Source: Thermococcus barophilus MP (GTDB lineage: Archaea > Methanobacteriota_B > Thermococci > Thermococcales > Thermococcaceae). From it: 64,000 nucleotides of DNA. The stretch spans positions 186,001-250,000 of the forward strand of contig NC_014804.1 in NCBI RefSeq assembly GCF_000151105.2, in the 5' to 3' direction. Within the stretch, counting starts at the first letter, position 1, and each line of letters starts with the position of its first letter. Below the pieces are notes generated by a model. That model searched no databases. It saw only the letters and a list, made by a program, of their open reading frames with translations, and was not told where the DNA came from. Positions 26,767-35,049 of this stretch are shown here, piece by piece. Position numbers and translations under genes: made by a program.

Positions 26767-26976
26767 TCAGCTAAGATCGTCATACACAATGCTCACTGTC
26801 TCACCGTCATCTAAAGCTACAAAGCTGATCTTGACTTTTTTTCCTGTTCTTGGATCAACAACAATGAAATCTGGGTTATCAAGGTATCTACTTGATGGGA
26901 TTTTCCAAACATCGCTGTAATGCTTCTTTAGCTCTTTTACAAATTTGTTGACATCTTTTTTAATAATAGCTGTCAT
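26767..26976 (-). CDS. Small protein of unknown function
   Basis: The start at 26976 (MTAIIKKDVNKFVKELKKHYSDVW) follows GGTGATATCT. The 69-residue product has an N-terminal basic helix and a beta-rich C-terminal half (DFIVVDPRTGKKVKISFVALDDGETVSIVYDDL). No family recognised. It lies alone, with a TATA-like GCTTTTTATACTT upstream near 27006-27018. Confidence 0.65.
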   Translation of the reverse strand: MTAIIKKDVNKFVKELKKHYSDVWKIPSSRYLDNPDFIVVDPRTGKKVKISFVALDDGETVSIVYDDLS

Positions 26977-27062
26977 AGATATCACCATATATATGTACAA
27001 CCCTAAAGTATAAAAAGCTTTTTAATCGCTATTCGTTAAAGATATTATCGACAATTGTCTAT

Positions 27063-28080: not shown

Positions 28081-29364
28081 GTGGAGGTCATAGAGAATTC
28101 AAGGTTTGGAAAGTTCCATTACAGATTGCTGGCAGTCTTAGGCACAATATGGGCGTTTATAGCAATTAACACTCTCTCTGTGGCATTTATAATTCCGTTG
28201 CTGAAAAAAGAACCTGCATTTCAAGGGAGCCTAACGAAGCTTGGAGCAATGGGTTCAGCGGCATTATGGGGCATGCTGCTTGGAGCGTGGTTCTTCGGAA
28301 TACTGGCTGACTATATAGGAAGAAAGAAGAGTTTGAGCCTGGCAGTGGCCACATTCGGCATTGCCTCAGTGGTGAGCTCATTTGTTCAAAGCTTGGATCA
28401 GCTGATTGTTCTAAGATTTATAGTTGGTCTTGGTTTGGGTGGTTCTCTCCCAGTTGCAAGCTCATACTTCGCCGAATTCATGCCAAAGAAGATCAGGGGT
28501 GCTATGATTTCAATTTTGGAAAGCTTCTGGGCAATTGGTACGATAATAATTGGAATTGTTGCTTTGATAGTGAAGGCAGATTGGCGGGGAATACTTCTAT
28601 TTGGAGGTGCAATCATATTAGCATTGCCTTTCTTGGCTACACTACCAGAATCTCCTCGCTTTCTGCTTCTCAATGGGAAGATTAGAGAAGCTGAGGAGAT
28701 AATAAGAAGAATCTTTGGAGTTTCTGTAAAACTGGAAATGCCCAAGAAGGAGCACAGAAAAATCACAATTGCAGAACTTTGGAGGAAACACGCCAAAACA
28801 ACTTTCATGTTGACAGTTGCATGGTTCAGCATTGCATTCGCTTACTATGGATTCTTTATATGGCTTCCAAAGTTTCTTGCATCAACGCTTAACATCACTG
28901 TTTTTAAGAGCTTTCAGTATTTCATAATTACTGCACTTGCGCAGTTGCCGGGCTACTGGAGTGCTGCATATTTCATTGAGAAAGTTGGAAGAAAGAAAAC
29001 ATTATCTGGTTATCTATTCGTATCAGGTTTGGCTGGACTCTTATTCTATAAATTTGCAAGTTCTGGAAATGCTCCAATGATACTTCTGAGTGCTGTGTTA
29101 TTCAGCTTCTTTAACTTGGGTGCATGGGGAGCAATCTATGCTTATACTCCTGAGCTATATCCAACAAGTGTCAGAGGCACAGGAACTGGCTGGGCTGGAG
29201 CCATGGCAAGAATAGGCGGCGGATTGGCACCTATAGTTGCTGGAAGAGTTATGGAAATCTCAACAGTCGGGATGGCAGTGCTCATAATAGCAATAATCTC
29301 AATAATAGGTGCCTTGGATATTGCAGTACTCGGAAAAGAAACAAAAGGAAAAGCCTTAGAGTAG
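28081..29364 (+). CDS. MFS transporter
   Basis: The 427-residue protein has twelve predicted membrane segments and the MFS signatures GILADYIGRKKSLSLAV (loop 2-3), VLRFIVGLGLGGSLPVASSYFAEFMPKKIRGA and PESPRFLLLNGK after segment 6, the last being typical of the sugar-porter/organic-acid group. The second half repeats the motif in EKVGRKKTLSGYL. It likely moves a small solute with protons; the substrate is not predictable. Start is GTG 28081 behind GGTGAGG. Its stop overlaps the end of the opposite-strand microprotein gene at 29356. Confidence 0.85.
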   Translation: MEVIENSRFGKFHYRLLAVLGTIWAFIAINTLSVAFIIPLLKKEPAFQGSLTKLGAMGSAALWGMLLGAWFFGILADYIGRKKSLSLAVATFGIASVVSSFVQSLDQLIVLRFIVGLGLGGSLPVASSYFAEFMPKKIRGAMISILESFWAIGTIIIGIVALIVKADWRGILLFGGAIILALPFLATLPESPRFLLLNGKIREAEEIIRRIFGVSVKLEMPKKEHRKITIAELWRKHAKTTFMLTVAWFSIAFAYYGFFIWLPKFLASTLNITVFKSFQYFIITALAQLPGYWSAAYFIEKVGRKKTLSGYLFVSGLAGLLFYKFASSGNAPMILLSAVLFSFFNLGAWGAIYAYTPELYPTSVRGTGTGWAGAMARIGGGLAPIVAGRVMEISTVGMAVLIIAIISIIGALDIAVLGKETKGKALE

Positions 29365-29463
29365 TTCTTCTAAATATCCAAGCTCTTCCGGTACTGGCTT
29401 TTTCTTTTTCTTTTCCATCTCTCTAATGATCATGTAGCCGTGAAGGAGTGGTAACCATTCCAT
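29356..29463 (-). CDS. 35-residue lysine-rich microprotein
   Basis: A short reading frame begins with ATG 29463, exactly placed behind GGAGGTGAGAGAT, one of the best ribosome binding sites in the window. The product reads MEWLPLLHGYMIIREMEK, then KKKK, then PVPEELGYLEELL. A TATA-like GACTTTTAAGCCC lies at 29518-29530, giving a leader of about 35 bases. The plan (short hydrophobic start, E, a lysine run) resembles the other microprotein at 34957. No family recognised. Convergent with the MFS gene by a 9-base overlap. Confidence 0.65.
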   Translation of the reverse strand: MEWLPLLHGYMIIREMEKKKKKPVPEELGYLEELL

Positions 29464-29739
29464 ATCTCTCACCTCCTTTTTCTTTTTTCCTCATACTCAA
29501 TAATTATTTGATATTTTGGGCTTAAAAGTCTTGTGCGCTCTGAAATGGCTGTGAATGTTCTTCTGAGGTCAAAACTCACGTAAAACAGCCTAAATGTTCC
29601 ATTTCCAGATATAATGTACATGTTTGGACATAAAGAAAGGTTTGGATTAGACTATTTGATGAAAACGTATTCATTAATACAATTTGGCAAAACCTAAGGA
29701 TTATAAAGTTGTCATCACTCTTTCTTATGGTGGGAAGAA

Positions 29740-31086
29740 ATGGCTTTAGAGAGTCTTGGTAAGGCATTAAACGCTGCATTAAAAAAACTCGCACGTGCAG
29801 GTTCTGTTGATGAAGTGCTGATTAAGGAGGTCGTAAGGGATATTCAGAGAGCTTTAATAATGAGCGATGTTAATGTTAAACTTGTTCTTGACTTAACTAA
29901 GAAAATTCAAAAAAGAGCCTTAGAAGAAAAGCCTCCTGCTGGAGTATCCAGAAGGGAGCACATTATAAAGATAGTCTATGAGGAGCTCACAAACTTCCTC
30001 GGAAAGGAAGCGAAACCCATAGAGATAAAAGAAAAGCCAACTATTCTGCTTACGGTTGGAATTCAGGGTTCTGGTAAGACAACGACAGTTGCCAAGCTTG
30101 CTCGGTATTTCCAGAAAAGAGGATATAAAGTTGGACTGGTGTGTTCTGATACTTGGCGTCCCGGGGCTTATCACCAGCTTAAGCAATTGGTTGAGCCCTA
30201 TTCAATTGAGGTTTTTGGTGATCCCAATGAGAAAGATGCCGTTAGGCTTGCTAAAGAAGGAGTGGAGTACTTCAAGCATAAAGGAGTTGACATAATCATA
30301 GTTGATTCTGCCGGGAGGCATAAAGAAGAGAAAAGTCTAATCGAAGAAATGAAACAGATAAGTGATGCGATAAACCCCCATGAGGTTATTCTCGTTATAG
30401 ACGGAACGATTGGTCAGCAGGCTTATAGTCAAGCTTTAGCATTTAAAGAAGCAACCCCGATAGGTTCAATTATTGTAACAAAACTTGATGGTTCAGCAAA
30501 GGGAGGAGGGGCACTATCAGCTGTTGTGGCAACAGGTGCCCCAATAAAGTTCATTGGTGTTGGAGAGAGAATTGATGATTTAGAGCCTTTTGACCCAAAG
30601 AGATTTGTATCAAGGTTACTTGGCTTAGGTGACATTCAAGGTCTTTTAGAGAAATTTGAAGAGCTAAGCAAGGCTCAGGAACTCAAAGAAGAAGATTTGG
30701 AAAAGTTCATGCGTGGAAAGTTCAATCTTAAAGATATGTACGCTCAGCTTGAAGCTATGAGCAAAATGGGGCCCTTAAAGCAGATACTCCAGATGATCCC
30801 TGGTTTGGGATACTCCCTTCCTGATGATGTTGTCAGGGTTAGTGAGCAGAGGTTGAGGAAATTTAAAGTGATCATGGATTCAATGACTGAAGAGGAGCTT
30901 GAACATCCTGAGATTATCAACTACTCGCGCATTAAGAGAATTGCCAGAGGTTCTGGAACCACAGTGAAAGATGTTAAAGAACTGCTTGAGCAGTATAATC
31001 AGATGAAGAAATTCTTTAAGAGCATGAACAAAAGAAGTCTTAATAGGATGATGAAGAGATTGGGTATGGGAGGTTTTGGCATATGA
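29740..31086 (+). CDS. srp54: Signal recognition particle SRP54
   Basis: 448 residues with the N domain helix bundle, the G domain ([18 protein letters not shown]-loop near residue 107, [22 protein letters not shown]) and the methionine-rich M domain (about 300-448: [31 protein letters not shown]) that binds 7S RNA and signal peptides. It targets nascent membrane and secreted proteins to FtsY/SecY. Start behind GGTGGGAAGAA; TATA near 29699-29709. It overlaps the next gene by four bases. Confidence 0.97.
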
Positions 31087-33838: not shown

Positions 33839-34168
33839 ATGGGGGGGTTTTTGGTTTATAATGCAGAGGGCAGAAGCTTGGTTATTGATGCCAACATTGG
33901 AGAAAGATTCTCTTTTTATTGCCCCAAGGAGGAATGTGAAACAGAAATAGTAATTGAAGGAGTCATAAGGCATGCAACTTTTGATGAGTTTGTTAGAGTT
34001 AGGGATCATATTATTGAGCAGAACAAAGAATTTAAAGTACTTAGGGATGTACTTCCCAAAGAACCTGTCATTTTTGAGGGCACAGTAAACGGAAAGAAGG
34101 TGAAATTGCCAGTAGAAAAACTGGACGAAGCAGCAAAGCGATTCATTAATAAATATCTAACTAAATAG
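33839..34168 (+). CDS. Small protein of unknown function, start disturbed by a G7 run
   Basis: The open frame from ATG 33839 gives 109 residues (MGGFLVYNAEGRSLVIDANIGERF...). It has two cysteines in FYCPKEECETEIVIEG and an even charge pattern. A better-placed ATG at 33820 lies behind GAGGAGTAAAA but is one base out of frame; the two frames join if the G7 run at 33841-33847 had six G. The intact protein may therefore begin MLGESGDGGFLVYN. Family not recognised. Its end overlaps the convergent Lrp gene by eight bases. Confidence 0.65.
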   Translation: MGGFLVYNAEGRSLVIDANIGERFSFYCPKEECETEIVIEGVIRHATFDEFVRVRDHIIEQNKEFKVLRDVLPKEPVIFEGTVNGKKVKLPVEKLDEAAKRFINKYLTK

Positions 34169-34956: not shown

Positions 34957-35049
34957 ATGATTGAAGATGCGCTGATGTTTTACATAATGACCAGCGTAAA
35001 AGAGGAGAACAAAAAGAAAAAGAGGAAATTTTTAGCCTTTTCCCGCTGA
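34957..35049 (+). CDS. 30-residue lysine-rich microprotein
   Basis: ATG 34957 follows AAGGAGGTGATGCCG, a near-perfect ribosome binding site. The product is MIEDALMFYIMTSVKEEN, KKKKRK, FLAFSR. A TATA-like AAGTTCTTTAAAATTTGC lies about 75-85 bases upstream (34872-34889). The following metallophosphoesterase gene has its own promoter, so this is probably a separate unit. It resembles the microprotein at 29356 in layout: short hydrophobic stretch, E/EE, then four or more lysines. Function unknown. The 200 bases before it hold nothing else that I can name. Confidence 0.6.
   Translation: MIEDALMFYIMTSVKEENKKKKRKFLAFSR

Follow-up and report, generated by a model that had tools for sequence, protein, structure and literature searches.

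A short, conserved and probably repeatedly lost microprotein gene with its own control region beside srp54 in the Thermococcaceae

Small proteins of fewer than 70 amino acids have been described in Haloferax volcanii; in the available part of that report they are conserved and are taken to have been missed by length-based annotation (PMC10716476). The Thermococcaceae microprotein described here resembles them in being conserved and perhaps in having been missed by annotation, but, as far as the available part of the report characterizes them, differs from them in lacking the zinc motif CPxCG (PMC10716476). A second likeness is to the YqzL-like family (PF14006), which is also very short. Residues 8-22 of the protein encoded in the window (the whole stretch of 64 kb that was analysed) fit the PF14006 profile weakly over these 15 positions (E 0.096), and 12 of 51 aligned members of the microprotein family match it at E <= 10, the best of them at 0.019; however, the window protein scores 13.4 bits as a whole, where Pfam requires 27 bits, and thus falls outside YqzL. 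The PF14006 model matched Bacillus subtilis among the control genomes and gave no match at E <= 1 in the window's own genome. Searches of Pfam and NCBIfam with the 51 members returned no family at its cut-off or at E 0.01, and a search of PHROGs with the window protein was empty. Comparison with the PDB by sequence gave a single, chance-level match (E 1.4), and comparison by fold gave nothing at E <= 10. Neither the gene nor the family was named in any title or abstract opening found, open-licence full texts being covered.

The microprotein gene lies on the minus strand at 29356..29463, with its ATG at 29463 and its stop codon at 29358-29356, and encodes the 35 residues MEWLPLLHGYMIIREMEKKKKKPVPEELGYLEELL. 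The initial annotation had proposed a 35-residue frame without giving a strand, and this frame is present; its start codon had been described as well placed behind a ribosome binding site, and the Shine-Dalgarno sequence GGAGGTG (29470..29476, minus strand) indeed ends 6 nt ahead of the ATG. The final 9 bases of the coding sequence overlap the end of a convergent MFS gene (28081-29364, plus strand). A T-rich stretch right after the stop codon (29332..29355, minus strand), the other strand of which encodes the end of the MFS gene, is a possible terminator, judging by its composition. ATG frames of 30-60 amino acids preceded at 4-9 nt by a GGAGGTG-like 7-mer occur twice in the window (29463 and 34957), and 40 first-order Markov sequences contained on average 0.525 and at most 2 such layouts. 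The layout by itself is thus weak evidence, and it is conservation that decides. A 50-amino-acid frame (29469-29621, minus strand) stops within the Shine-Dalgarno site of the microprotein gene and is open in the window's genus; it is short in many other genera and is thus no general feature. Two further proteins of the conserved neighbourhood, one of 77 amino acids (26770-27000, minus strand), found near the locus in at least 46 of 68 loci, and one of 109 amino acids (33839-34168, plus strand), gave no match in Pfam searches.

Homologues of the microprotein are widespread in the Thermococcaceae. A protein search of 94 genomes of the family gave matches at E <= 1 in 69, some of them by chance; a profile run on the fetched loci recovered the protein in 68 loci from 63 different genomes, and a scan of the DNA upstream of srp54 in genomes without a clear match revealed three further remnants. 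After sorting by hand, the homologue is uninterrupted in 60 genomes, degraded in 6 (G074, G076, G080, G083, G085 and G052) and absent from 24, the absences being called where the DNA upstream of srp54 was readable; 4 genomes could not be assessed, three of them for want of an srp54 match (G036, G053 and G086) and one at a contig end (G091). The 60 include a short copy (G060) and two loci without a strict Shine-Dalgarno site (L029 and L042). By genus code, intact copies are distributed as 43 in g4, 7 in g5, 6 in g1, 3 in g2, which we take to be Palaeococcus, and 1 in g6, and the gene is absent from all nine genomes of g3, presumably Pyrococcus. At the level of the phylum, a profile search of 115 genomes matched 68 at E <= 0.1, all of them inside the Thermococcaceae, and no homologue was found at this threshold in the 21 other genomes of the phylum. 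A 26-residue segment resembling the microprotein consensus was seen at L202 824-901, L203 665-742 and L204 704-781, in a protein that we assume to be a Brix-domain protein; it recurs with profile E-values of 0.02-0.08 per genome and was rejected as a homologue, the likeness being probably at chance level. Origin from a mobile element was likewise rejected, as searches for plasmid or phage matches were empty at E <= 1.

Conservation extends to the signals for translation and to the reading frame. A Shine-Dalgarno sequence of the GGAGGTG, GGGGGTG or GGGGTG type lies 5-9 nt before the ATG in 59 of 63 genome-unique loci, second copies of a genome (L001, L073-L076) having been removed from these counts and from the rows of the upstream region, and in 57 of the 59 the peptide has 32-38 residues; the remaining two have 25 (the frame-shifted copy of G074) and 29. 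For the analysis of substitutions, 51 members were aligned, leaving out short or divergent ends (L062, L063, L071), the frame-shifted copy (L072), loci with no recognised start (L029, L042, L064, L067) and identical sequences. In 25 independent closest pairs, simple counts uncorrected for saturation gave a pS of 0.34, a pN of 0.11 and a pN/pS of 0.32, with 110, 98 and 192 substitutions at the first, second and third codon position, the third changing most. By the same uncorrected counts, pS was 0.36-0.74 and pN 0.05-0.10 in five comparisons within the window's genus, and the median pN/pS was higher, at 0.49, over all 295 pairs with a pS of 0.15 to 0.6. The microprotein is under purifying selection, with start, frame and stop conserved, which is the pattern looked for in a protein-coding microgene. 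The locus might instead encode a small non-coding RNA, or serve as a dual RNA and peptide gene, with the frame as a by-product; it is a short single transcription unit, and the available parts of published Thermococcus maps contain intergenic non-coding transcripts (PMC4247193, PMC5316973). Against this stand the codon-biased substitutions and the kept frame, the folding of 40 sequences of the upstream part, which predicted 0 pairs, and the Rfam search of the locus, in which no family reached its gathering score and the upstream region gave only sub-threshold noise, so that this explanation is very unlikely. That a separate gene for the microprotein exists at 29463-29356 on the minus strand is, by comparison, almost certain. 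The initial annotation had named lack of conservation at the protein level as the observation that would speak against a translated microprotein; when this was applied, homologues were found, and the gene stands, strongly supported by conservation in Thermococcaceae genomes.

The aligned members share a pattern of a few fixed residues and one variable basic stretch. Y10, E26 and E27 are invariant in the 51 members, with M1 and L34 close to it; outside the alignment, two divergent copies (G021 and G018) carry N or D at position 26, so that E26 is not fixed without exception. W3, Y8, E15, E17, P23, P25, L28, Y30, V31 and E32 are each the most frequent residue at the site concerned. At residues 18-22, lysine and arginine swap freely, with a net charge of -2 to +1. 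The five-lysine run of the initial annotation is present in the window protein but is not a trait of the family, and the description 'lysine-rich' gives way to that of a Lys/Arg cluster. The invariant Y10, E26 and E27, together with free exchange of lysine and arginine at a steady charge, fit specific contacts plus a charge cluster. AlphaFold predicts two helices for the window protein, at residues 3-20 and 26-34 (mean pLDDT 78, pTM 0.37), and this model is only moderately confident, with a pLDDT of about 63-65 over the second half; for one relative, helices were predicted at residues 2-20 and 25-35 (mean pLDDT 88, pTM 0.41).

These features bear on the question of where the peptide might act. 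One explanation holds that it is a membrane-surface peptide, in which the short hydrophobic helix of residues 3-13 would insert shallowly at the inner face of the membrane, with lipid head groups held by the Lys/Arg cluster and a membrane protein recruited or tuned by the acidic helix. In most members, 4-5 Lys/Arg come after the hydrophobic or aromatic residues at positions 3, 4, 7, 8, 10 and 11, which is in line with this arrangement. However, the hydrophobic segment claimed from the window sequence, although present, covers only about 11 residues (3-13); read directly from the sequence, this longest uncharged stretch yields no single-pass membrane span and is too short for crossing. In addition, 0 of 51 members had a helix 1 (residues 2-16) whose Eisenberg moment pointed to amphipathicity (shuffle p < 0.05), and we consider a membrane-surface peptide rather unlikely. 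The C-terminal end, which had been described as acidic and amphipathic, is acidic; amphipathicity of helix 2 of the window protein was not borne out, as its moment was 0.34 compared with 0.24 in shuffles (p 0.21).

On its upstream side, the microprotein gene is divergent from srp54 (29740..31086, plus strand), which has its own TATA box and whose best NCBIfam models are SRP54/ffh, below their cut-offs. Among the matches listed, srp54 adjoins the microprotein gene in 62 of 63 genomes, the exception being G093, and the two genes stand head-to-head in all 58 measured loci, with start codons 247-338 bp apart (median 270). The other flank varies: among the matches listed, the convergent MFS gene is found there in 6 g1 and 7 g5 genomes; most g4 and some g5 loci have a co-directional ARMT1-like (DUF89) gene or the 77-amino-acid gene, and in two of the three g2 genomes a phosphoribosyltransferase-HTH gene comes next. 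A role as leader peptide was rejected, since the next gene in those g1 and g5 genomes is the convergent MFS gene. On an srp54 tree of 87 genomes, which omits three short srp54 rows, one missing row and three genomes without srp54, presence of the gene needs 10 changes, or 13 when degraded copies are counted as absent. Change counts of this kind cannot separate gain from loss; loss is the likelier of the two, given the constant position of the gene and its remnants. The microprotein gene is a single-copy gene of the Thermococcaceae that is, most probably, vertically inherited and has repeatedly been lost. Since it is missing from 24 genomes, it is not generally needed.

The promoter is conserved as well. 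The initial annotation had mentioned a sensibly placed TATA box without stating which one was meant; the box CTTTTAAG (29521..29528, minus strand), at -65..-58 from the ATG, is kept in relatives. Searching -78..-45 for a TATA-like match succeeded in 63 of 64 loci, which represent 59 genomes because second copies were retained in this count; the control stretch, -150..-117, had such a match in 4 of 64. In the available parts of published Thermococcus maps, some 23-27 nt separate the TATA box from the start site (PMC4247193, PMC5316973), and with this spacing a 5' UTR of about 35 nt would be expected for the microprotein gene. Upstream of the TATA box is a conserved control region of spaced blocks (29531..29688, minus strand; about -225 to -68 from the ATG), the best-conserved block of which, TGTACATT (29613..29620, minus strand), reads TGTnCAT in most relatives. 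The control region, the divergent srp54 and the repeated losses were all absent from the initial annotation. Coding function of the blocks was rejected for lack of codon periodicity (73/69/74 substitutions by position in 12 pairs) and of any open frame shared by all 40 rows. As far as the available part of a comparison of two Thermococcus species goes, upstream identity drops with distance from the start site (PMC5316973), and against it a conserved control region of this length stands out.

Of 31 genomes searched with a model of the control region, 16 contained a single strong match each (E 1.6e-8 or better); several of the 16 are rows of the model itself. The next best match anywhere had an E-value of 1.5e-4 among the matches listed. 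A shared regulon was rejected, as the second-best match in the window's own genome reached only E 0.034 among the matches listed, with 96 candidates scored in each genome. According to the available part of the report on EarA, the motif of this archaellum regulon is A(C/G)(C/G)TACA(T/C), nine nt upstream of the BRE (PMC10665913). Membership in this regulon was rejected as well, because ATGTACAT in the window is one letter off and is separated from the TATA box downstream of it by about 85 nt, and so was a link to the archaellum, as archaellin is found in 47 of 60 genomes with the gene compared with 19 of 24 without it.

The position of the blocks between two divergent promoters would also be compatible with their serving srp54, the microprotein gene having a plain promoter only. 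However, searches around srp54 in the 24 genomes lacking the gene found the control region in none of them, and in three of these that were searched whole (G004, G005 and G009) the best match had an E-value of 5.8e-4. Of the genomes with remnants only, G052 and G085 have kept the region and G080 has not, and in G091 it is partly seen where the contig ends. The control region belongs with the microprotein gene, as the two occur together. G093 bears on the same point: here, the gene has been relocated (L236 8948-9043, minus strand), where it has a TATA box and a Shine-Dalgarno site of its own; srp54 is on another contig. Its neighbours are presumably UPF0179 and pxpC, the gene lying downstream of what we take to be pxpA-pxpB-pxpC. 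In the 19 kb around the relocated gene, a model built without this genome gave its best match upstream of the microprotein gene and near the expected place; upstream of srp54 it gave none. With a short length and 8.6 bits, where 100 shuffled 19-kb sequences gave a best score of 10.4 and a next one of 8.3, this match is only suggestive. Control of srp54 by the blocks is improbable.

The constant neighbour invites a further explanation, according to which the microprotein binds RNA or ribosomes or takes part in protein targeting, in a functional tie with SRP; the basic cluster would bind RNA, and the adjacency would reflect joint control with srp54. The head-to-head arrangement, the narrow range of start-codon distances and the interchangeable Lys/Arg cluster speak for this proposal; against it, the genes have separate promoters and lie on different contigs in G093, srp54 is retained without the microprotein in 24 genomes, and no relative was found among PDB chains, solved ribosomes included. 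We regard a tie to SRP as rather unlikely. The reading we put forward, tentatively where the mechanism as a whole is concerned, is that of a cytosolic accessory peptide with two helices, which docks on a partner and is made on demand. The N-terminal hydrophobic/aromatic helix and the Lys/Arg cluster would dock on this partner, most likely a protein complex, and the acidic C-terminal helix (P-x-P-E-E-L-x-Y-V-E-x-L) would supply a second, specific contact. The multi-block control region would allow the microprotein to be made on demand, and cells could manage without it. However, the microprotein could also work without a partner, or have its site of action at the membrane or on RNA.

A second microprotein with a matching layout had been pointed out at 34957, and it proved to be conserved too. 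Its gene (34957..35049, plus strand) encodes 30 amino acids and precedes a same-strand metallophosphatase-like gene, whose Pfam match is just below the cut-off. The product is, as judged from sequence, also a conserved family, with 21 loci, matches in 38 of 115 genomes at E <= 0.1 (34 counted at E 1.2e-6 or better) and E3, D4 and Y9 invariant in 19 aligned rows. It shares with the first microprotein the Shine-Dalgarno site, a hydrophobic start, a Lys/Arg run and part of the same genomes, but its consensus (MIEDALLLYL...) is without the acidic end, and its upstream DNA is little conserved. Homology of the two was rejected, as hhalign gave a probability of 1.9 % and no relation was detectable. 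Of the 60 genomes that carry the first gene, 29 also have the second family, as do 2 of the 24 without the first; on the tree, with 8 starred independent pairs, this co-occurrence was not significant. A third candidate family with a lysine run turned out to be a spurious frame inside another gene, which we take to be PhoU-like.

With protein, start, promoter and control region all conserved, the microprotein gene is a clean case for the hidden small proteome of hyperthermophilic archaea. It is conceivable, though quite speculative, that this undescribed family of the Thermococcaceae is inducible and modulates protein targeting or translation, and that it would be switched by an uncharacterised transcription factor reading the spaced TGTnCATT-type blocks. 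The Thermococcaceae include genetically tractable Thermococcus species, and the scattered losses of the gene provide a natural comparison for tracing the role of the microprotein.
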